Shown here in pieces: positions 2,693-13,640 of a stretch of 26,105 nucleotides of DNA. The notes under the pieces were generated by a model, which was given only the letters and a program-made list of their open reading frames with translations, was not told where the DNA came from and did not search any database. The position numbers were made by a program, and so were the translations under genes. Within the stretch, counting starts at the first letter, position 1, and each line of letters begins with the position of its first letter. Origin of the DNA: a virus. The stretch lies in the IMG/VR virus record IMGVR_UViG_3300042564_000718, positions 1 through 26,105 of that record; one strand, 5' to 3'.

Positions 2693-3101
2693 TAACTATC
2701 CTTACCGTGACAGGTTGGTTTACTTTTTCCCCTCCAGTAGTTACGTCCGTCTTTTCAGTGAGTCCGTTTAGTCGCTGAGTGATTGACGGATTGTACTGTC
2801 CAATCATGCCACCTTCAATTTGGTCGTTGCGTATTTCTTTCTTAATGCGTGAACAGATACCTATATACGCTGAATATGCCCCCTCTCTATTTGAAAAGTA
2901 CTGCTCAACTCCCCTCGATTCAATACCTTCGTAATTCATGACAAAAACGTCGAAGCCCTCCATTGTAAGTGGGGGTGTGTGAAGTTCTATTACGACTCCC
3001 TTGGGGGTTGCTTTCTGTATTTGGCGTGGTTGTCTACTCTCTTTGTAGGCTTCGAATAGTTCCCACATCTTCTCAGGAGTTTCTATATACTTTGATTTCA
3101 T
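2673..3101 (-). CDS. terS: Terminase small subunit (gp3-like)
   Basis: This 142-residue protein lies directly upstream of the large terminase and overlaps it by 20 bases. The N-terminal layout (YIETPEKMWELFEAYKE, then a Pro-rich loop, TMEGFDVFV and a helical region ending IKKEIRNDQIEGG) resembles DNA-packaging gp3-like small terminases, in which this region recognises the packaging site. The segment QYNPSITQRLNGLTEKTDV is also common in terminase small subunits of Bacteroidota phages. Its role would be to bind the pac or cos site and recruit TerL. The family call rests on pattern memory plus the adjacent terL. Position alone strongly supports the function. Confidence 0.8.
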   Translation of the reverse strand: MKSKYIETPEKMWELFEAYKESRQPRQIQKATPKGVVIELHTPPLTMEGFDVFVMNYEGIESRGVEQYFSNREGAYSAYIGICSRIKKEIRNDQIEGGMIGQYNPSITQRLNGLTEKTDVTTGGEKVNQPVTVRIVNGNTSD

Positions 3102-3292: not shown

Positions 3293-3446
3293 TTTCGCCA
3301 GTTATTGCTACCAAGTAACAAAGGTAGCTAATTAAAGACCACCCTGAAAACTGCATGGCGTGAGTAGTGTCGTTGTATATAAGGCTCAAAGCTGAAACAA
3401 GTACAAAACAAGCTACTAAAAAAGCGAATAGGTTACTAATTTTCAT
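3285..3446 (-). CDS. Small membrane protein, 53 aa
   Basis: This ORF of 53 codons exactly fills the space between its neighbours. It starts with MKISNLFAFLVACFVLVSA, one hydrophobic helix that could be a membrane anchor or signal sequence. A second, weaker hydrophobic stretch (SGWSLISYLCYLVAI) lies near the C terminus. Both ends support it: the start forms an ATGA overlap with the stop of the upstream 89-residue gene, and its end overlaps the next gene by 8 bases. No function can be assigned. A two-helix membrane protein in a phage operon could be lysis-related or affect the host envelope, but nothing here proves it. Confidence 0.6.
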   Translation of the reverse strand: MKISNLFAFLVACFVLVSALSLIYNDTTHAMQFSGWSLISYLCYLVAITGENG

Positions 3447-3712
3447 TTTCTTTTGCGCTTAGGTTTCTCAAAGGTTACCGCTTGAAGTTCGGGTTGTTCT
3501 ACTTCTATTGCTTTATAGTTTATAGTTGGTAGTTCGTTTGAAAATTCAATGTTTAGTTCCGTCTTTTCAAAGTACTTCGCCAAATGGACCCCGCATTTTT
3601 CAGCCGATTCAATTTCCTGTTCTGTAATGTCTTTAAGTTTTTTAGTAACACGAACCCCATTCAATGAGTATTCAATTGTTACATCTTCATAATTCTCTCT
3701 TATCTTCAACAT
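3443..3712 (-). CDS. Hypothetical protein, 89 aa
   Basis: This is an 89-residue soluble protein. The N-terminal half reads as alternating beta strands (VTIEYSLNGVRVTKKL) followed by an acidic helix (TEQEIESAEKCGVHLAKYFEK). The C terminus is a basic tail, KPKRKRK. It overlaps the upstream sigma-like gene by 26 bases and the next gene by four. I do not recognise the family. The basic tail could bind nucleic acid, which is speculation. Confidence 0.55.
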   Translation of the reverse strand: MLKIRENYEDVTIEYSLNGVRVTKKLKDITEQEIESAEKCGVHLAKYFEKTELNIEFSNELPTINYKAIEVEQPELQAVTFEKPKRKRK

Positions 3713-4629: not shown

Positions 4630-4658
4630 CAAATATACGATTATTTTTTAACCAACAA
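4630..4658 (-). promoter_or_regulatory. Bacteroidota-type promoter P3 (packaging/tail operon)
   Basis: Read on the minus strand, the -7 box TATATTTG (4637-4630) perfectly matches TAnnTTTG. A TTTG with its TTG at 4658-4656 gives an 18-base spacer; another TTG at 4655-4653 gives 15. The spacer contains TTAAAAAATAATC, shared almost exactly with the promoters at 7586 and 13457. It lies 17 bases upstream of the start at 4613. Its -33 region is also the U-tract of the terminator just upstream. Confidence 0.8.
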
Positions 4659-5928: not shown

Positions 5929-6097
5929 TTTCCGTGTTTTTAAATTTACCTTCCGTTTCTTTAACATTATTCACATAATAAAACCTTACCACTTGAGATT
6001 GAGTTAAACCAGTTTCTTTGGCTTTGTTTTCAATCCATTGTTTTTCGGTTGGTGTAATCATTAAGCGAAACATAATCGTTTTTTTTTCTTTTTTCAT
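5915..6097 (-). CDS. Ribbon-helix-helix-like DNA-binding protein, 60 aa
   Basis: This 60-residue, highly charged protein has a basic N terminus (MKKEKK), a short strand TIMFRLMIT, then a helix (PTEKQWIENKAKETG) and a second helix beginning LTQSQVVRFYY. This strand-helix-helix order is the ribbon-helix-helix pattern of small repressors and MobC-like proteins, which bind operators as dimers through the strand. It could regulate the recombination operon or act in DNA metabolism. It overlaps the MazG-like gene by 14 bases. Confidence is moderate because many short phage proteins show this pattern. Confidence 0.55.
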   Translation of the reverse strand: MKKEKKTIMFRLMITPTEKQWIENKAKETGLTQSQVVRFYYVNNVKETEGKFKNTENESR

Positions 6098-7578: not shown

Positions 7579-7590
7579 ATTTGTACAAAT
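7579..7590. promoter_or_regulatory. 12-base palindrome overlapping promoter P2 (candidate operator)
   Basis: ATTTGTACAAAT is a perfect palindrome that covers the second half of the -7 box and the expected start site of the recombination operon. A repressor bound here would block the promoter. The HTH and ribbon-helix-helix proteins encoded downstream are candidates; this is inferred. Confidence 0.4.
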
Positions 7591-7617
7591 ATACGTTTTA
7601 TTTTTAATACAATACAA
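7586..7617 (-). promoter_or_regulatory. Bacteroidota-type promoter P2 (recombination operon)
   Basis: On the minus strand the -7 box TATATTTG (7593-7586) is a perfect TAnnTTTG. A TTG at 7617-7615 gives a 21-base spacer; another at 7612-7610 gives 16. The spacer holds GTATTAAAAATAA, identical to the 13457 promoter. The erf start is 24 bases downstream of the -7 box. Confidence 0.85.
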
Positions 7618-7978: not shown

Positions 7979-8486
7979 CTTTAATCTTGTTTTTGTAGGT
8001 TGCTATTAATTCCTTTAGTTCGTCTTTTGTCCATTTCTTCGTGTCGTGCGCCTTTGCTTCAAGTTGGTCGTACTTTTGTAGTCCAATTTTGGCTATTAGT
8101 CCTTTTTGGTAGGCTATTAAATTTCCGTGTTTATGTTGGTTACAAGCTACGCACTGGGCGTGTATATTGTCAATGTCAAAACGCACATTCCCGTGACCAC
8201 CTACGCTCCAATAGTGCCCTGCGTCATATTTGCTTCCGAGTGTTTGACCGCATGAAATACAACCTTTGTCTGCATCTCGCATTCTTATGTATTTGTTTAC
8301 GACTTGTTGAGCCAATTTAAGGTAGTCCGACGTAGTGAGCAGGTCTTCTTTCGCCTTTTTGACCTTGTCCTTTTTAATCTTGGCGAGGTTCTTTAACGCT
8401 TGTTCCGTCTTTTTGCAGACATAGCAATGTTTGTCTAAAGTCGTAAATGGTGTAAAGGTTTCACCACATTTTTTACATGACTTCAT
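7968..8486 (-). CDS. ninG: NinG/Rap-like HNH recombination nuclease
   Basis: This is a 172-residue protein of the lambda NinG (Rap) type, which cleaves branched recombination intermediates. An N-terminal zinc motif (CKKCGETFTP, then HCYVCK, residues 4-24) is followed by a long Lys-rich helix. The nuclease core is CISCGQ, DAGHYWSVGGHGNVRFDIDN, then HAQCVACNQHKHGN; the zinc-binding Cys pairs and the His in AGHY form the HNH-type active site. This order and spacing match NinG well. It overlaps the neighbours by four and 11 bases. Its Lys-rich linker is typical of the family. Confidence 0.85.
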   Translation of the reverse strand: MKSCKKCGETFTPFTTLDKHCYVCKKTEQALKNLAKIKKDKVKKAKEDLLTTSDYLKLAQQVVNKYIRMRDADKGCISCGQTLGSKYDAGHYWSVGGHGNVRFDIDNIHAQCVACNQHKHGNLIAYQKGLIAKIGLQKYDQLEAKAHDTKKWTKDELKELIATYKNKIKDGI

Positions 8487-8755
8487 ATAAATTTCTTTAG
8501 TTCCGTGTTTTCATTCCGTAGTCTCAAATTCTCCTCAAACACTGCGTAGTATTTCTTAATCACTTGCTTGTGGTCTTCGCAAACTCGGTAAAAGGTTAAC
8601 ATCGCTTCTTTCAGTTCGATTTGTCGTGTTTCCATCGGCTTAATCAGGTCAACTCGGTGCGTGTGTTTCGTCTTCAAGTCGTAAATGCTCATCGTCAACG
8701 CTCGGTCAAGTGTCTGTAGGTTGATTTGTGCGGTTAAAATGTCAAGTTCTTTCAT
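8483..8755 (-). CDS. Hypothetical coiled-coil protein, 90 aa
   Basis: This 90-residue protein is almost wholly helical. The C-terminal half (KQVIKKYYAVFEENLRLRNENTELKKFI) has leucine/asparagine heptads typical of a short coiled coil. There is no catalytic motif. It lies between the methyltransferase and ninG and overlaps ninG by four bases. It may be a small binding partner in DNA metabolism; the function is unknown. Confidence 0.6.
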   Translation of the reverse strand: MKELDILTAQINLQTLDRALTMSIYDLKTKHTHRVDLIKPMETRQIELKEAMLTFYRVCEDHKQVIKKYYAVFEENLRLRNENTELKKFI

Positions 8756-8756
8756 A

Positions 8757-9596
8757 TTAGAATAGGGTTGTTTGGTCTAAATATGGTTTTAATCTTTTGT
8801 TAGCTAAATCAACATATTCCTGAGATAACTCGCTTCCTATCCAATTTCTCTTATAAATATGCGCCATTTTAGCAGTTGTTCCACTTCCCATAAACGGGTC
8901 ATAAATTAAGTCTCCTTCATTTGACCAAGAGTAAATGTGATTTTTAGCTAATTTTTCAGGGAATGTAGCTGGGTGACTAAATATGTCATCTGTTGACGAT
9001 ACCATATACCCTACTGGTATATTCCAAATATTGGACATTAATTTCTCTTTACTTTCAGTGGCTTTCTTTAATCTTTTTAATGCTTTTTCATCTGCTGTTT
9101 TTGTGTTACCTTCTTTATCTCTATATGTGGTAGTGTTACTTCTACTAAATGAGTTTTCAGATTTTGGTTCATATAATGGATTAAATGTTTTCGGTTTACC
9201 TTTTGAAAAAATAAACATATATTCAAAACTTTGATGAAATCTTATTGAATCAGGAAATGGAGATATTCGTCTATAAATCATAGTATCGTGCAAATTAAAG
9301 CCACATTCCATTGCATACAATGCTTGTTTAAAACTTGTCCCGGTTTCACTTCCATTTATTGTTGCATCATTCACAACCCAAACAACTACACCACCTTCTT
9401 TAGTAACTCGATAAAGTTCATTTATTATTTGTTTCCAGATATGTTCACCCCAAGACTTATCAATATCGTCTTTATATGTCCTTAAATTGTCGTATGGTGG
9501 ACTTGTTACTGTTAAATCAATAAAGTTGTCAGGCATCTTTGCCATTGTTTCAAGATTACTCTCGCAGTAAATCTTATTTAGTTCTAAATTATTCAT
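8757..9596 (-). CDS. Site-specific DNA methyltransferase (beta-type, N4-C or N6-A)
   Basis: This 279-residue amino-methyltransferase has the permuted beta-class order: catalytic motif IV TSPPYD at residues 31-36 near the N terminus, then DPFMGSGTT (S-adenosylmethionine motif I) near residue 240, followed by NWIGSELSQEYVDLANKRL. The SPPY form is commoner in N4-cytosine enzymes but also occurs in N6-adenine ones, so the base is unresolved. The variable middle (about 120-200) would be the target recognition domain. No partner restriction gene is visible, so this is a solitary phage enzyme, probably protecting phage DNA from host restriction or marking it. The gene appears AT-richer than its neighbours, a hint of separate origin. 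Confidence 0.9.
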   Translation of the reverse strand: MNNLELNKIYCESNLETMAKMPDNFIDLTVTSPPYDNLRTYKDDIDKSWGEHIWKQIINELYRVTKEGGVVVWVVNDATINGSETGTSFKQALYAMECGFNLHDTMIYRRISPFPDSIRFHQSFEYMFIFSKGKPKTFNPLYEPKSENSFSRSNTTTYRDKEGNTKTADEKALKRLKKATESKEKLMSNIWNIPVGYMVSSTDDIFSHPATFPEKLAKNHIYSWSNEGDLIYDPFMGSGTTAKMAHIYKRNWIGSELSQEYVDLANKRLKPYLDQTTLF

Positions 9597-9813
9597 ATGC
9601 TCCAGTTATATTGTTTCTAATTTCGTCATTTTTTTTCACTTCAGTATACCCTAAATTTATTGCAGTTTGACCTACTACTTTAGAATTTAAAACATTTACT
9701 ATTTTATTATTTTTATATAATAAATCTCCTTCAGTCCAAACGCAGTTTTTTAATTGTTTTTCTTTGTTTTTTTCTATTACTATTAAATCCCCGTAAAGTA
9801 TGTTTTTTCTCAT
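9589..9813 (-). CDS. Hypothetical protein, 74 aa
   Basis: This is a 74-residue protein rich in Asn, Lys and Ile, encoded by very AT-rich DNA. The first part (ILYGDLIVIEKNKEKQLKN) reads as a small beta fold, and the rest is hydrophilic. It overlaps the methyltransferase by 8 bases. The shared AT-richness of the two suggests they came together. No motif is recognised. Confidence 0.55.
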   Translation of the reverse strand: MRKNILYGDLIVIEKNKEKQLKNCVWTEGDLLYKNNKIVNVLNSKVVGQTAINLGYTEVKKNDEIRNNITGAYE

Positions 9814-9814
9814 A

Positions 9815-10801
9815 TTAAAAAGGTAAGTCGTTATTAAATTCGTTTTTTGGTCCGTAGAAGTTGTTGAGTTCTGGCACTAATTTACTGACTTTAATCTCTC
9901 CTTTCGGTGATGCGTATCTTTTTTGCAGGTCACTCGGTCCAATCATATCCAATTCGTAATAAGTGAGCGTGTTCACGTCGAAATGTAGCACAACATCTCC
10001 AATTTGACCAACCGAACGAGGTTTGATTTTATTCATTTTGATTTCGGCTACATTGCTATTGATGTCAGGACGGTGTACCGTAATCATACACTTGCCACTA
10101 TTAAACCACTCCGAGCCTCCTTTCAAGTCGTAAGGTCCGGGGGCGTTCCTTTTTCCATCTCTACCCTTTTCCGTCAACTTCGGGTGAATAATGGTGTGAA
10201 AATGAAGATTATTTTCTTCGGCAATGTGATTTCGATACGGAAGGCAAAACTCCAAATAAGTCGCATAACCGCCAAACTCATCGTATGGGTGGCTCATATC
10301 TTTCCAAGAATCTATACTTGCTGTTTCAAGTCCTTCGCTTTTTTTCATTTCGGCGGCTAAGTCCCAAAACTGCATAGGTGTAAGTTTCGCTTTTACGTCC
10401 GTTCGCGTTAAGATTTTGAAATGAAATAAAACCCATTCAAGATTTTGTTCGATTTCTTTGTCCGTTATCGTGTTAGGTTTCTTTGGGTCAAATGATTTGC
10501 TCGTCTTTTTGTGCAAAAGGTCCGCGACAATTTCGACATTATTCCCAACGTCAGGAAAATATACCAAGTGTTTCCACGAATAAAACATCGATGCGTTAAC
10601 AAGTAACTCCATCAACACTTGAGTCTTTCCGCTCATGGGGAAACCCGTCCAATCTGTGCAATTTCCTAACTGCATCGAATAGTGTTTATCTAAACTTTCA
10701 AACCCTAAATACTTACCTCGTTCGTGGTATTTGTCTCGGTAGGTTTTGAGTTGGTTTAGTACGTCGTTAGGTTCAGTAACCTTAAATCCTTCTATTCCCA
10801 T
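9815..10801 (-). CDS. RecA/DnaB-fold replication ATPase (putative helicase)
   Basis: This 328-residue protein has a Walker A motif GFPMSGKT at about residues 53-60. That is followed by QVLMELLVNASMFYSWKHLVYFPD in the manner of DnaB/RecA-type ATPases, and by a Walker B-like SIDSWKDM near 164. The region HTIIHPKLTEKG then GPYDLKGGSEWFNSG (about 200-235) fits the sensor/loop of DnaB- and Twinkle-like ATPases, which hydrolyse ATP to move along DNA. It lacks an obvious N-terminal DnaB domain, so it may be a shortened helicase, or a helicase loader or recombinase. It follows the winged-helix organiser gene with a 10-base overlap, which supports a replication role. Confidence 0.75.
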   Translation of the reverse strand: MGIEGFKVTEPNDVLNQLKTYRDKYHERGKYLGFESLDKHYSMQLGNCTDWTGFPMSGKTQVLMELLVNASMFYSWKHLVYFPDVGNNVEIVADLLHKKTSKSFDPKKPNTITDKEIEQNLEWVLFHFKILTRTDVKAKLTPMQFWDLAAEMKKSEGLETASIDSWKDMSHPYDEFGGYATYLEFCLPYRNHIAEENNLHFHTIIHPKLTEKGRDGKRNAPGPYDLKGGSEWFNSGKCMITVHRPDINSNVAEIKMNKIKPRSVGQIGDVVLHFDVNTLTYYELDMIGPSDLQKRYASPKGEIKVSKLVPELNNFYGPKNEFNNDLPF

Positions 10802-11466
10802 GCTGCTTTGAATTTATTTTGTTGTTTAATTTGTCCGAATGTACTATTATTCTTTTGTCGTGTTTTTATCCAACCTCTAACAGTTAAATTAGCACTATCA
10901 TATTTCTTTTTTAAATCCTTAGAATTTTCCATTGACATAAATACATCGACTAAATCATATTTATCAAATTCTAATAATAGACGTTCAGCCTCCGAGTTGT
11001 TTATTGGGCTAGATAAACTTTGAACTTTAGGACAATTAGTATTTAAATATTCAACGAGTGGATGTACTTGTTCTTTGTTTATTGTTTCTTGTTTATTTAT
11101 ACTAACAGTGCTTTGACTTTGCTTTGTACTATGCTTTTGCAGTGCTTTGTCTAGTGCTTTGGTAGGTGCTTTTGTATTTTTTACAATAGCAATTATGTTA
11201 GATGAGTATTGATTTTTACTAATTTCTATCATCTTGATAAATCCAAAGTCAACAAGTTCTTGCAATCCTGCCGAGTACGTTCGCCAATTTTTAACACCTA
11301 TTGCCTCCATAACCATTTGAGAAGGAAGTCCAAATTTATCCTTCCAACCTAATCGGTTGCAATGCTCAATTGAAAAGTAATAAATTGCATAGTGAATTGG
11401 CTTCACTTTGTCAGGGTTCTCAAATGCCCAGTTGCAAAAGTTTCTGCTTAAATCGTAGCCATTCAT
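10792..11466 (-). CDS. Winged-helix replication organiser-like protein
   Basis: This is a 224-residue protein. The N-terminal domain (about 1-100) contains IHYAIYYFSIEHCNRLGWKD, then LPSQMVMEAIG and TYSAGLQELVDFGFIKMI, the helix-helix-wing pattern of phage replication organisers that recognise an origin. A Lys/Ser/Gln-rich linker with a run of short repeats (TKALDKALQKHSTKQSQS) follows. A C-terminal helical domain (about 155-205) contains LLLEFDKYDLVDVFMSMENS, of the type that contacts the helicase. It is encoded directly upstream of the ATPase. The combination fits a replisome organiser, though no origin repeats were found inside the gene. Confidence 0.65.
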   Translation of the reverse strand: MNGYDLSRNFCNWAFENPDKVKPIHYAIYYFSIEHCNRLGWKDKFGLPSQMVMEAIGVKNWRTYSAGLQELVDFGFIKMIEISKNQYSSNIIAIVKNTKAPTKALDKALQKHSTKQSQSTVSINKQETINKEQVHPLVEYLNTNCPKVQSLSSPINNSEAERLLLEFDKYDLVDVFMSMENSKDLKKKYDSANLTVRGWIKTRQKNNSTFGQIKQQNKFKAAWE

Positions 11467-11648
11467 AAAAATCTTATTAAATACTGGATTAGTTCTTTTA
11501 TATCTTCTTCGTCTAAACCTACTCCAATACTATTTTCACCATTTGTAATATCAAATAATACTGTTCCACCAGCACTTACAAATAATCTATCACCACTTTC
11601 AGGAGACAACTTACAAGTAAATTCTAAATAATCCTTTTCTTCATTCAT
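11463..11648 (-). CDS. Hypothetical acidic protein, 61 aa
   Basis: This 61-residue acidic protein is the first gene after the hairpin element at 11669-11720. It contains LFDITNGENSIGVGLDEEDIKELIQYLIRFL, ending in an amphipathic helix. There are no catalytic residues that I recognise. It overlaps the replication organiser by four bases. Position suggests it may act with the organiser and ATPase; nothing more can be said. Confidence 0.55.
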   Translation of the reverse strand: MNEEKDYLEFTCKLSPESGDRLFVSAGGTVLFDITNGENSIGVGLDEEDIKELIQYLIRFL

Positions 11649-11668
11649 AACTTAAATTTTTAATACAT

Positions 11669-11720
11669 AAAAAAACCCTACTGACGTTCGCGGCTTCCAC
11701 CTCGCTAATAATCAATAGGG
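11669..11720 (-). terminator. Long-loop terminator or attenuator hairpin
   Basis: On the minus strand CCCTATTGA (11720-11712) pairs with TCAGTAGGG (11684-11676), nine pairs including one G-U, followed by seven T. The 27-base loop includes GTGGAAGC-type sequence complementary to the region 11749-11760. It lies between the DnaA-IV-like gene and the 61-residue gene, in a 132-base stretch without a gene. Confidence 0.6.
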
Positions 11721-11760
11721 CATAATAACACCTTTAAAGTTCTATAACGTGGAAGCGAAC
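11686..11760 (-). repeat. 12-base inverted repeat linked to terminator loop
   Basis: GTTCGC-TTCCAC at 11686-11700 (with a 3-base insert GGC) is the reverse complement of GTGGAAGCGAAC at 11749-11760. One arm is in the loop of the terminator hairpin and the other is upstream of it on the minus strand. The RNA could therefore form a pseudoknot, or an alternative fold that excludes the terminator. Confidence 0.6.
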
Positions 11761-11780
11761 TCGTCTACAATATTAAGTGT

Positions 11781-12227
11781 TTAACGTTTCATTTGGTTGA
11801 TTCGATTATATTTTTTTATCAACAACCGTTCGATTTGTCTACTGGCTATTATTACGTTCGTGTTTTGGTCGTTACTCGCGTGTTGTGCTATCTCAACGCA
11901 ATCAATCACGTCTTGTAGCTTTTCTCTTAGCATGGGGTGGAAACCGTCTAAGGCGTAGACTAACATTTCCTGAGAGTAAACTACGGTTGCGTGGTCTTTA
12001 TTAAACGTCTTACCAGCTTCGACTATTGACATGCCACATAAACACGCCCATGCCATCCCTAATTGTCGCCACTGCATGATGTCACGGCTTCGGTTAGGGA
12101 TTTTTAGTTCGTCTATTGAATAGGGACACACCAAGAAAAACTCGTGCATCGTGTAGAAGTTCCGTTTCGGTAATTTCGACTTAATGTATTTTAACTTTCT
12201 GCCGTATCTTTCGCTGTCTTTAACCAT
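11781..12227 (-). CDS. DnaA domain IV-like DNA-binding protein, 148 aa
   Basis: This is a 148-residue protein. The central part (about residues 46-92) contains NRSRDIMQWRQLGMAWACLCGMSIVEAGKTFNKDHATVVYSQEML. It follows the C-terminal DnaA domain layout: a helix with Arg-x-x-Ala-type spacing, then S-x-x-E-x-G-x-x-F-x-x-(K/R)DH-(A/T)TV and a helix after it. In DnaA this part recognises DnaA boxes; here there is no AAA+ domain, so it might bind the origin or a phage promoter without initiating. It overlaps the upstream gene by 37 bases. It may recruit or compete with host DnaA. Family resemblance is by eye, but the Asp-His-x-Thr-Val signature is clear. Confidence 0.7.
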   Translation of the reverse strand: MVKDSERYGRKLKYIKSKLPKRNFYTMHEFFLVCPYSIDELKIPNRSRDIMQWRQLGMAWACLCGMSIVEAGKTFNKDHATVVYSQEMLVYALDGFHPMLREKLQDVIDCVEIAQHASNDQNTNVIIASRQIERLLIKKYNRINQMKR

Positions 12228-12445
12228 TGTCTGAATGCTATTTGTATGTTTATTTGTTGTTCGCTTGTTTCTTGTGACGCGTTCTTCATAATCCTTTCAT
12301 CGAGTTTTCGTATTTGTCCGATGAGGTTCTGCGTTGCTATCTTCATATCAGTTCTAAATGCTTTGTCTTCGTTTAGGTCTTCGAGGAAGTCCGCGAGTAC
12401 CGGCATTATTCCGATGGCTGCAAGGAGTTTGAGTTCTTGGTTCAT
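12191..12445 (-). CDS. Hypothetical helical protein, 84 aa
   Basis: This 84-residue helical protein starts MNQELKLLAAIGIMPVL and continues with charged amphipathic helices (LNEDKAFRTDMKIATQNLIG, LDERIMKNASQE). A longer frame of 117 codons from 12544 is open, but its first 33 codons overlap a well-supported upstream ORF. The ATG at 12445 forms an ATGA junction with that ORF, so the shorter start is preferred. Function unknown. It overlaps the DnaA-IV-like gene by 37 bases. Confidence 0.6.
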   Translation of the reverse strand: MNQELKLLAAIGIMPVLADFLEDLNEDKAFRTDMKIATQNLIGQIRKLDERIMKNASQETSEQQINIQIAFRQWLKTAKDTAES

Positions 12446-12585
12446 ATCATTTCTACTTTTAAAATTATACCTTCCCAAAGGTCGGCTTTTTTGATTGCGT
12501 CTTCTTTGCTGTTGGCTGTCACTATCTTGTACATCTCTATCCAAGTTTTGTGTGCGTAGCCTTTATATGTTACTTTCCATTTCAT
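12442..12585 (-). CDS. Hypothetical protein, 47 aa
   Basis: This 47-codon ORF starts MKWKVTYKGYAHKTW and continues with a pattern AN-SKEDAIKKADLWEGI that recalls small phage proteins where a short strand is followed by a helix. It overlaps the 68-residue upstream gene by 23 bases, and its stop overlaps the next start in an ATGA junction. The layout of short beta strand, helix and strand supports coding. Function unknown. Confidence 0.6.
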   Translation of the reverse strand: MKWKVTYKGYAHKTWIEMYKIVTANSKEDAIKKADLWEGIILKVEMI

Positions 12586-12769
12586 GATTACATTCTTTTA
12601 ATAGTTCAATCGTCTTTTCAGAGCCAATTATTTCGGACACTTTACCAATAAATAACTGACGTTTTAATCTTTCTTTTTTTTCAAGTTCTAAGGCTTGTTT
12701 AATTTCTTTGGCTTTTAAATATTCAAGTTGTCCAAATGCATTAACTAAAAATTCTACTGGTGTTTTCAT
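12563..12769 (-). CDS. Hypothetical helical protein, 68 aa
   Basis: This 68-residue protein is rich in Lys, Glu and Leu (LKAKEIKQALELEKKERLKRQL) and forms a likely long charged helix. The ending KTIELLKECNHEMESNI is hydrophilic. It overlaps the next gene by 23 bases. It lies in the early operon, and its function is unknown. Confidence 0.55.
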   Translation of the reverse strand: MKTPVEFLVNAFGQLEYLKAKEIKQALELEKKERLKRQLFIGKVSEIIGSEKTIELLKECNHEMESNI

Positions 12770-12813
12770 GCTAAATAGTTTTTACGTTTTACCGTGTTTT
12801 TGTTAATAGTATT

Positions 12814-12960
12814 TTACGTTGTTGCTTTTTTGATTTCTGAAATTCGGTTTACTAAGTCTGCGTTGTAATTGGTCCACCACTTTTTTCTATCTGCGTGGGT
12901 GATGGCTAACTGTCGTCTTAAGATTTCCTCAAAAACCAATATTTTCTTCTTCGTCTTCAT
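12814..12960 (-). CDS. Small basic helical protein, 48 aa
   Basis: This 48-codon ORF starts MKTKKKILVFEEILRRQLA and ends NRISEIKKATT; the middle has the aromatic segment RKKWWTNYN. It is basic and mostly helical. It overlaps the upstream Cys-rich ORF by 32 bases in another frame. Without it a gap of more than 100 bases would be left in a dense operon. No function is known. Confidence 0.5.
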   Translation of the reverse strand: MKTKKKILVFEEILRRQLAITHADRKKWWTNYNADLVNRISEIKKATT

Positions 12961-13090
12961 GTTCGATAATTTTAGTTATTGTACCTTCACCATTACATTC
13001 GTTGCATTCGCACCAAACCATGCGTGACTCTTCCCAACAAGCGACCTGAAAGTTCCCCGTTCCGTCGCAGAAAAAACATTTTGTTTCCAT
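12929..13090 (-). CDS. Cys-rich putative zinc-binding protein, 53 aa
   Basis: This 53-codon ORF contains two cysteine knuckles: CFFCDGTGNF (residues 5-14) and CECNECNGEGT (27-37). They have the Cys-x-x-Cys-x-Gly-x-Gly character of DnaJ-type zinc motifs. The remainder is acidic (EHEDEEEN). The sequence pattern, together with a start just downstream of the 68-residue gene, makes coding very likely. It may bind zinc and mediate a protein or nucleic-acid contact; activity is not known. It overlaps the next ORF by 32 bases. Confidence 0.65.
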   Translation of the reverse strand: METKCFFCDGTGNFQVACWEESRMVWCECNECNGEGTITKIIEHEDEEENIGF

Positions 13091-13093
13091 AGT

Positions 13094-13300
13094 TTATTTT
13101 TTATATATTAATTCTCTAGCGTGTCTTATGCCTTCAGTATAACCGCTATGAAGCCCTGATTGAAATTTAGATTCTAATGTTTCGTCATAAATTTGTTGAA
13201 GTTTGGTATAAACACCTTTTTTGTATTCTTCATTTTGATTTATGAAATATTCGTCGCTAATTATGCTAGCTACAAATTCTATAAACGGTTGCTTTTCCAT
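13094..13300 (-). CDS. Hypothetical protein, 68 aa
   Basis: This 68-residue protein is helical with polar surfaces: FIEFVASIISDEYFINQNEEY near the start and GYTEGIRHARELIYKK at the end. No membrane segment or catalytic motif is seen. It starts two bases after the upstream stop at 13303 and ends three bases before the Cys-rich ORF begins. Function unknown. Confidence 0.55.
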   Translation of the reverse strand: MEKQPFIEFVASIISDEYFINQNEEYKKGVYTKLQQIYDETLESKFQSGLHSGYTEGIRHARELIYKK

Positions 13301-13451: not shown

Positions 13452-13640
13452 CCTTACAAATATACTGCATTATTTTTAATACGCAATACTTTTGCACACT
13501 TTTTTAACAAAAAAAATTAAAGTCTATTTTTAAAGTCAATGATAGTGCGGGTTTCAGGGCAAAATAAAAATTCATGGAATAGTGATTTTGTAAAGGTATA
13601 GCCTTACAATAAATACATTTTGTCAAGAATAACCTTACAA
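13452..13640 (-). repeat. Three direct repeats TTGTAAGG in the early control region
   Basis: On the plus strand CCTTACAA occurs at 13452-13459, 13602-13609 and 13633-13640, and an imperfect inverted copy (TTGTAAAGG) lies at 13588-13596. The first copy overlaps the promoter at 13457. They occur in a 290-base non-coding stretch and could be regulator sites. Confidence 0.45.
13457..13486 (-). promoter_or_regulatory. Bacteroidota-type promoter P1 (early operon)
   Basis: On the minus strand the -7 box TATATTTG (13464-13457) is a perfect TAnnTTTG. TTG at 13486-13484 gives a 19-base spacer, inside the accepted range. The spacer contains GTATTAAAAATAA, shared with the promoter at 7586. It heads the replication operon. 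Confidence 0.9.

Follow-up and report, generated by a model that had tools for sequence, protein, structure and literature searches.

A phage RNA family in which two hairpin loops, one of them in a terminator-like stem, are predicted to kiss upstream of replication genes

The viral DNA analysed here (IMG/VR record IMGVR_UViG_3300042564_000718, positions 1 to 26,105; this whole 26,105-nt stretch is called the window) carries a terminator hairpin whose unusually long loop is complementary to a segment upstream on the same transcript. The question raised by this locus is whether the complementarity is an accident around an ordinary terminator or part of a structured RNA and, in the latter case, what such an RNA would do just ahead of a set of replication genes. 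The original prediction had considered a pseudoknotted terminator, an attenuator or a small RNA. Comparison with relatives indicates that the window element is one example of an undescribed phage RNA family, whose place in the genome points to control of DNA replication.

Layout of the element

The hairpin at 11676-11720 is present on the minus strand as predicted, with a 9-bp stem (11720-11712 with 11684-11676) around a 27-nt loop; a tenth pair (G-U) lengthens this stem, P2, to 11721/11675. The predicted 12-base complement was likewise found exactly, GTTCGCTTCCAC (11760-11749) being the reverse complement of the loop bases GTGGAAGC-CGC-GAAC with a 3-nt insert. With a P2 stem of 9-10 bp and seven U directly after it, the hairpin has the form of an intrinsic terminator, and it is missed by a generic terminator scan because that scan accepted no loop outside 3-8 nt. 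The element exceeds its first description, extending over about 11669-11762 (roughly 90-95 nt) with a promoter box in addition at 11768-11775. Its general order is a -7 box, a 5' hairpin (P1), a spacer, a terminator-like hairpin and a U-run. The terminator-like hairpin consists of an outer stem (P2), a purine-rich internal loop and an inner stem (P3), and its apical loop pairs with the loop of P1. The parts in the window, in the order of transcription, are as follows.

11768-11775, minus strand: -7 promoter box TAATATTG, one mismatch to the Bacteroidota TAnnTTTG, 5 nt upstream of P1
11757-11762, minus strand: P1 5' strand GAGTTC, putative RNA 5' end; covariation at all 5 modelled pairs
11749-11756, minus strand: kissing arm 1, GCTTCCAC, in the P1 loop; partner 11693-11700
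11743-11748, minus strand: conserved 6-nt loop linker GTTATA; consensus ATTATA
11737-11742, minus strand: P1 3' strand GAACTT
11722-11736, minus strand: spacer J12 from P1 to P2, TAAAGGTGTTATTAT; TTATT recurs in the alignment
11712-11721, minus strand: P2 5' strand GCCCTATTGA; two-sided changes at all 9 modelled P2 pairs (A7)
11706-11711, minus strand: purine-rich internal loop, 5' side, TTATTA; GAGTA or GAAT in relatives (alignment)
11703-11705, minus strand: P3 inner stem, 5' strand GCG; covaries through GC, UA, CG, AU and GU types
11693-11700, minus strand: kissing arm 2, GTGGAAGC, in the terminator apical loop; preceded by a 2-nt linker AG (11701-11702)
11690-11692, minus strand: P3 inner stem, 3' strand CGC; covariation
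11685-11689, minus strand: internal loop, 3' side, GAACG (alignment)
11675-11684, minus strand: P2 3' strand TCAGTAGGGT
11669-11675, minus strand: U-tract of 7 U, directly after P2

Taken alone, the window sequence is only mildly unusual, as an exact complement of at least 8 nt arises in 0.8% of shuffles of the element, and a loose descriptor of hairpin, complement and terminator is expected to give about 0.7 chance matches per window. The reading that the complementarity is accidental would rest on these two figures. The minimum free energy z-score from single-strand folding of the window RNA (-1.4 to -1.5) is uninformative here, because nested folding cannot show a kissing form. The calculated energies are about -20 kcal/mol for P1, P2 and P3 together and about -12 more for the arm duplex, against -22.5 for the nested alternative; the kissed form should be favoured on this rough sum, which omits loop-closure costs.

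Relatives of the element

Relatives of the upstream DnaA-IV-like protein are encoded at 66 IMG/VR loci, and most of the close ones are followed by the same RNA layout in different letters. Their arm pairs include CTTCCAC/GTGGAAG, CTCTCCAC/GTGGAGAG and CATCCTAC/GTAGGATG, and further GTAGCGG/CCGCTAC, GGGCAG/CTGCCC and GTGCAG/CTGCAC. A covariance model built from P1, P2 and P3 only, with the loop-loop helix left out, found 58 copies in these loci; classes II and III, which MAFFT misaligned, did not enter the model. Scanning viral contigs with a DNA pattern gave 120 stretches. Of the 79 new stretches listed, 57 were matched by model R1 at E<0.01; one more listed stretch (L157) was the contig of an already known copy, and the full layout was seen by inspection in 35 of the 40 unlisted ones. 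Altogether there are about 100 distinct copies in IMG/VR contigs, in addition to forms in cultured Polaribacter phages. As the DNA pattern demands ACATTATA, GA.GT, GC and TTTTT, the constancy of those letters is partly imposed in the set it gathered. This applies to the terminal AC/GT of the arms, which 23 of the 26 members of the protein-selected set also have, and in part to the conserved loop linker, which is present too in the protein-selected set A4.

A stand-alone descriptor of promoter box, P1, arms, P3, P2 and U-run matched 142 real loci and had no match in 2.09 Mb of order-2 Markov shuffled sequence made from the same loci; one of its matches, in a bacterial locus (L099), looks false. 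BLASTN of an approximately 110-base window element against phage records gave chance matches only, and tblastn of the DnaA-like protein at E 1e-5 found no phage record. Among bacterial genomes, the matches of a DnaA-based scan were all weak (E 3e-9 and above) and to cellular DnaA-type proteins, and model R1 had no match in 395 Bacteroidota genomes. The DNA pattern gave chance-like matches in 11 genomes, at about the rate of a reversed control, the two class samples used for it being almost identical sets of genomes. Since the sampled bacterial genomes yielded nothing convincing, the RNA appears to be phage-borne.

Compensatory change in the kissing helix

Compensatory change in homologues, on which the original prediction had staked itself, is found across about 100 distinct relatives. 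Among 71 distinct aligned sequences, 98.0% of the cells hold standard pairs, compared with 65% in shuffles, two-sided changes occur at 23 of 25 pairs, and the covariation score is 0.860, falling to 0.117 or less when the partner is slid by 1-3 columns. The protein-neighbourhood set, collected with no RNA pattern, gives the same picture (26 distinct sequences, 98.6% paired, two-sided changes at 22 of 25 pairs). Because the alignment model did not contain the kissing helix, these changes are independent evidence for it. The arms pair over 8 bp in register in 68 of the 71 sequences and in a shifted register in the other three. A complementary-arm parser applied to 100 elements found a helix of 8 bp, rarely 9 bp, in at least 96, with two 6-bp exceptions. 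In these elements arm 1 almost always follows the P1 5' strand directly and arm 2 directly precedes the P3 3' strand, with usual linkers of 6 nt in loop 1 and 2 nt in loop 2. The pairing partners are two hairpin loops, and the predicted pseudoknot is more exactly a hairpin-hairpin kissing loop. The compensatory changes strongly support both this contact and the broader category of attenuator or small RNA. On these comparative grounds the fold of P1, P2, P3 and kissing helix is essentially certain, whereas accidental complementarity, set against compensatory change and fixed geometry in so many relatives, has been refuted and retains a negligible probability. P1, the kissing helix and P3 are probably stacked, to judge from the lack of unpaired bases between them on one side.

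The competition proposed originally between the upstream arm and the terminator was not supported. None of the P2 bases takes part in the kissing helix, and conservation extends to all four helices jointly. The long competing helix of 12 bases was rejected, because its outer four pairs are kept in only 5 of 96 elements; the conserved core is the inner eight bases, GCTTCCAC/GTGGAAGC. The outer bases GTTC/GAAC are lineage-specific, GTTC really being the 5' strand of the separate covarying hairpin P1. P3 and the surrounding purine-rich internal loop also recur among relatives. In that internal loop (11706-11711/11685-11689 in the window), several relatives have AGUA opposite GAA in a sarcin-ricin-like arrangement and in others the purine-rich strands look swapped (GAA/AGGA), both as judged by eye only.

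The 100 elements contain 36 arm types. For 32 distinct 8-bp pairs, own pairing is always 8/8, and cross pairing with GU allowed reaches 8/8 in 15 of 992 combinations. Selection for orthogonal specificity of the arms was not supported, as P1 and P3 show two-sided changes at least as often as the arms do.

Variants and cultured carriers

Beside the common form there is a 7-bp class with 8-nt loops (L012, L019, L026, L310 and the second copy of L071) and a 6-bp class with 6-nt loops (L018, L024). The 7-bp form was found by the stand-alone descriptor in the isolated Polaribacter phage Danklef_1 (L073), and the DNA of this element is present, unannotated, in Danklef_1-5 and Freya_1-10. A looser form occurs in Cellulophaga phages phi13:2 and phi19:3 (L321 and L322, around 2900-3000), where the promoter-kissing-terminator layout has a 9-nt arm pair, CTCTCACAA/TTGTGAGAG, no clear P1, and then the terminator and a replication gene.

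There is usually one copy per contig. The L071 contig, which is also that of L312, has two copies (2882-2970 and 5967-6060) of different arm classes, with 8-bp GCTCTCAC and 7-bp GTTACGG arms, the second lying directly before a NUMOD4-HNH-type gene; L309 has a similar double arrangement. In L032, around 3426-3450, the DnaA-like gene runs directly into a DUF6291-type replication gene with no RNA between them, so the element is not indispensable. A ParB-like gene stands between the DnaA-like gene and the RNA in L017 (3306), L025 (5035) and L030 (5046), and the RNA there still has beside it a sequence, ATTAACCAAATGAATTAAATAGTAC, resembling the remnant of a dnaA gene end.

Promoter, U-run and neighbouring genes

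An exact TAnnTTTG precedes P1 in 74 of 100 distinct elements, the box being 2-8 nt away in all but one. TAnnTTTG as such occurs at chance frequency in the window; TATATTTG boxes at 4630-4637, 7586-7593 and 13457-13464 (minus strand), in or near intergenic gaps, are possible promoters. At the other end of the element, the T fraction is 0.85-1.0 at each of the first six positions after the stem in the 100 elements. Not every copy has a perfect U-run, the L051 group reading UUUGUU and the L224 group CAUUUAUU, and termination may therefore be weak. In each of the 96 elements whose downstream ORF could be read, an ATG follows the U-run at 1-50 nt (median 19), so that a further Bacteroidota promoter with a leader would hardly fit, if at all. 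A reading of the element as a DNA origin of replication was set aside, given the constancy of promoter spacing, of the U-run and of orientation relative to the following gene.

In the window the RNA lies, as predicted, just after the DnaA-IV-like gene, and the order continues on the same strand with the genes below.

11781-12227, minus strand: DnaA domain-IV-like gene, upstream of the RNA (PF08299, E=3.4e-9)
11463-11648, minus strand: 61-aa ORF, a variable small ORF with its start codon 20 nt after the U-tract; no Pfam or PHROG match
10792-11466, minus strand: replication-initiator-type gene of the MNGYDLSR family, 224 aa, the usual second gene after the RNA
9815-10801, minus strand: helicase or helicase-loader-like gene of the same operon, with PHROG primase/helicase matches

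The MNGYDLSR gene has no direct Pfam or PHROG match and was assigned by position and by its interchange with DUF6291, Lin1244_N and HTH_36 genes. Across relatives the first downstream gene belongs to more than 15 families (DUF6291, Lin1244_N, HTH_36, NUMOD4-HNH, a methylase fusion and many unannotated). In most operons that could be read, a gene of the replication-initiator type stands first or follows a single small ORF; where a small ORF comes first, the second gene is usually of the replication-initiator type and the third a helicase or loader. The 61-residue gene is consequently one of many interchangeable small genes, and the constant partner of the RNA is the replication-initiator-type gene. 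With its HNH genes or mutually unrelated small ORFs (about 50-100 aa), the slot between RNA and initiator gene resembles a cargo site. A ToxI-like type III toxin-antitoxin arrangement was not found, there being no Pfam toxin match in ten downstream proteins; variable small ORFs, HNH genes and replication-initiator-type genes lie downstream of the RNA. The window also codes for terminase, portal, tape-measure and endolysin.

Possible function

We consider it rather probable that the element is a leader RNA combined with a conditional terminator of the replication operon. A structured 5' leader of about 95 nt would be made on the minus strand from the Bacteroidota-type promoter at the end of the dnaA-IV-like gene, with transcription starting at P1. 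P1 and P2/P3 would then be joined by the intramolecular 8-bp kissing-loop helix, and the RNA would end in the intrinsic-terminator-like stem and U-run. Because the U-run lies 20 nt before the first start codon, transcripts from this promoter would have to read through it to express the operon. The terminator would then be partial or conditional, and the promoter would give rise to a stable short RNA and, by read-through, to replication-operon mRNA in a regulated proportion. The kissing fold may set the efficiency of termination or form the binding site of a phage or host factor. The leader would not be a classical antiterminator, because the kissing helix uses no P2 bases, and for this RNA neither a ligand, a protein nor a competing antiterminator fold was identified, nor is any antiterminator fold conserved. 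The leader probably switches the replication genes on or off, and control of the 61-residue protein together with these genes, as put forward originally, is plausible. A more specific proposal, which we offer tentatively, is that of a phage RNA switch for replication in which the terminator hairpin is the sensing domain. Its apical loop would kiss the 5' hairpin, and this contact would be opened or closed by a phage or host factor, or by another copy of the RNA, so as to time the expression of the replication genes.

Other functions can be fitted to parts of the same evidence. A trans-acting phage small RNA, IsrK-like, whose product of about 90 nt is the effector (for instance as a protein decoy or as antisense to mRNA of the host or the phage) and whose terminator only sets the 3' end, with read-through secondary, would agree with the element's own promoter 2-8 nt before the first hairpin, its own terminator, its compact and probably stable fold and its occurrence as a rule once per contig before many different genes. 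We nevertheless regard this as rather unlikely, for a free-standing small RNA gene needs neither the invariable same-strand position nor the short distance to a start codon seen in 96/96 elements, and the candidates for target pairing, the arms, differ among relatives and are already paired internally. Alternatively, the RNA could stabilise the mRNA or tune its translation, P1 blocking 5'-end-dependent decay and the U-run being part of an AU-rich ribosome entry site. The start of P1 within a few nucleotides of the expected transcription start, the AU-rich stretch up to the ATG and the copies with imperfect U-runs would suit such a role, yet it does not require the mostly G-C-closed stem with immediate U-run that is kept in nearly all copies, and we hold it to be improbable.

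Equally little weight can be given to immunity or copy control like that of P4 CI/C4 or pT181, in which a resident short RNA would pair with an incoming leader and force termination, the arm providing specificity. The position in the leader of a replication operon, the number of arm variants, the different arms of phages with about 95% identical DnaA-like proteins and the two differently armed copies in L071 speak for such a system. Against it, the arms are no more variable than P1 or P3 and are constrained in composition, and distinct arms often still match at 7/8 (172 of 992 cross pairs). Moreover, there is no integrase among the window proteins scanned, and no separate antisense gene was seen; no exact TAnnTTTG occurs on the plus strand of 8078-13188, an absence that says little about an antisense RNA as the element's own box has one mismatch.

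For the leader and conditional terminator that we favour, the wider meaning lies in its position and its distribution. A well-supported structured RNA family, absent from Rfam 15, is present in many uncharacterised aquatic phages and sits where its carriers turn on DNA replication. Since it recurs before interchangeable initiator families, it looks like a general control point. To judge from the promoters, the hosts of the carriers are Bacteroidota, in which few regulatory RNAs have been studied. Because the Polaribacter phages Danklef and Freya are cultured carriers, direct tests of the fold and of its influence on termination are feasible, and the 36 matched arm pairs form a natural mutational series for the study of kissing loops.

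Comparison with known systems

Rfam 15 gave no match at the gathering threshold in the window or in 12 loci with relatives, neither the C4 antisense RNA of P4 CI (RF01695) nor IsrK being matched; the best trace was a sub-threshold atoC match (21.4 against 50 bits). To our knowledge no RNA family uses as a switch an intramolecular kissing loop that is part of a terminator, and we found no description of such a kissing-loop leader in the open-licence literature, an earlier description elsewhere being possible. The put RNA of phage HK022 is a two-hairpin leader that acts in cis on termination from the beginning of an early operon. It differs in lying upstream of separate terminators, whereas here the terminator is part of the fold. 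The preQ1 and fluoride riboswitches similarly place a compact leader pseudoknot beside an intrinsic terminator, but the present element is not tied to one metabolite through any gene family, lacks an Rfam match and showed no invariant ligand-type core.

Attenuators of the pT181 type act in the control of plasmid rep genes. In these a kissing-hairpin contact is coupled to transcription attenuation (PMC3753616). There, however, the kissing partner is a separate antisense RNA and the antiterminator is known, while here the contact is intramolecular and no antiterminator fold is conserved. Motifs from Bacteroidetes and from phages are among the candidate structured RNAs listed in 2010 (PMC2864571); Rfam includes some of these, and none of those it includes matched the element.

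Together with the pT181 attenuators, two phage RNAs are the nearest systems described. From the IsrK locus of the Gifsy-1 prophage, one promoter gives both a terminated small RNA and a read-through mRNA into phage genes (PMC4825925), which parallels the promoter, short terminated RNA and downstream read-through envisaged here. As far as the account in that source goes, IsrK differs in acting on the translation of its own read-through mRNA, and no loop-loop link to the terminator loop is described for it there (PMC4825925). The CI RNA of P4 likewise lies in the leader of a replication operon, with complementary segments in the same leader, and premature termination limits expression of the replication genes (PMC4825925). 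In what the same source gives of P4, CI is processed from the leader and pairs with the separate seqA and seqC, whereas in the present family both arms are loops of one RNA of about 90 nt that ends in its own terminator.
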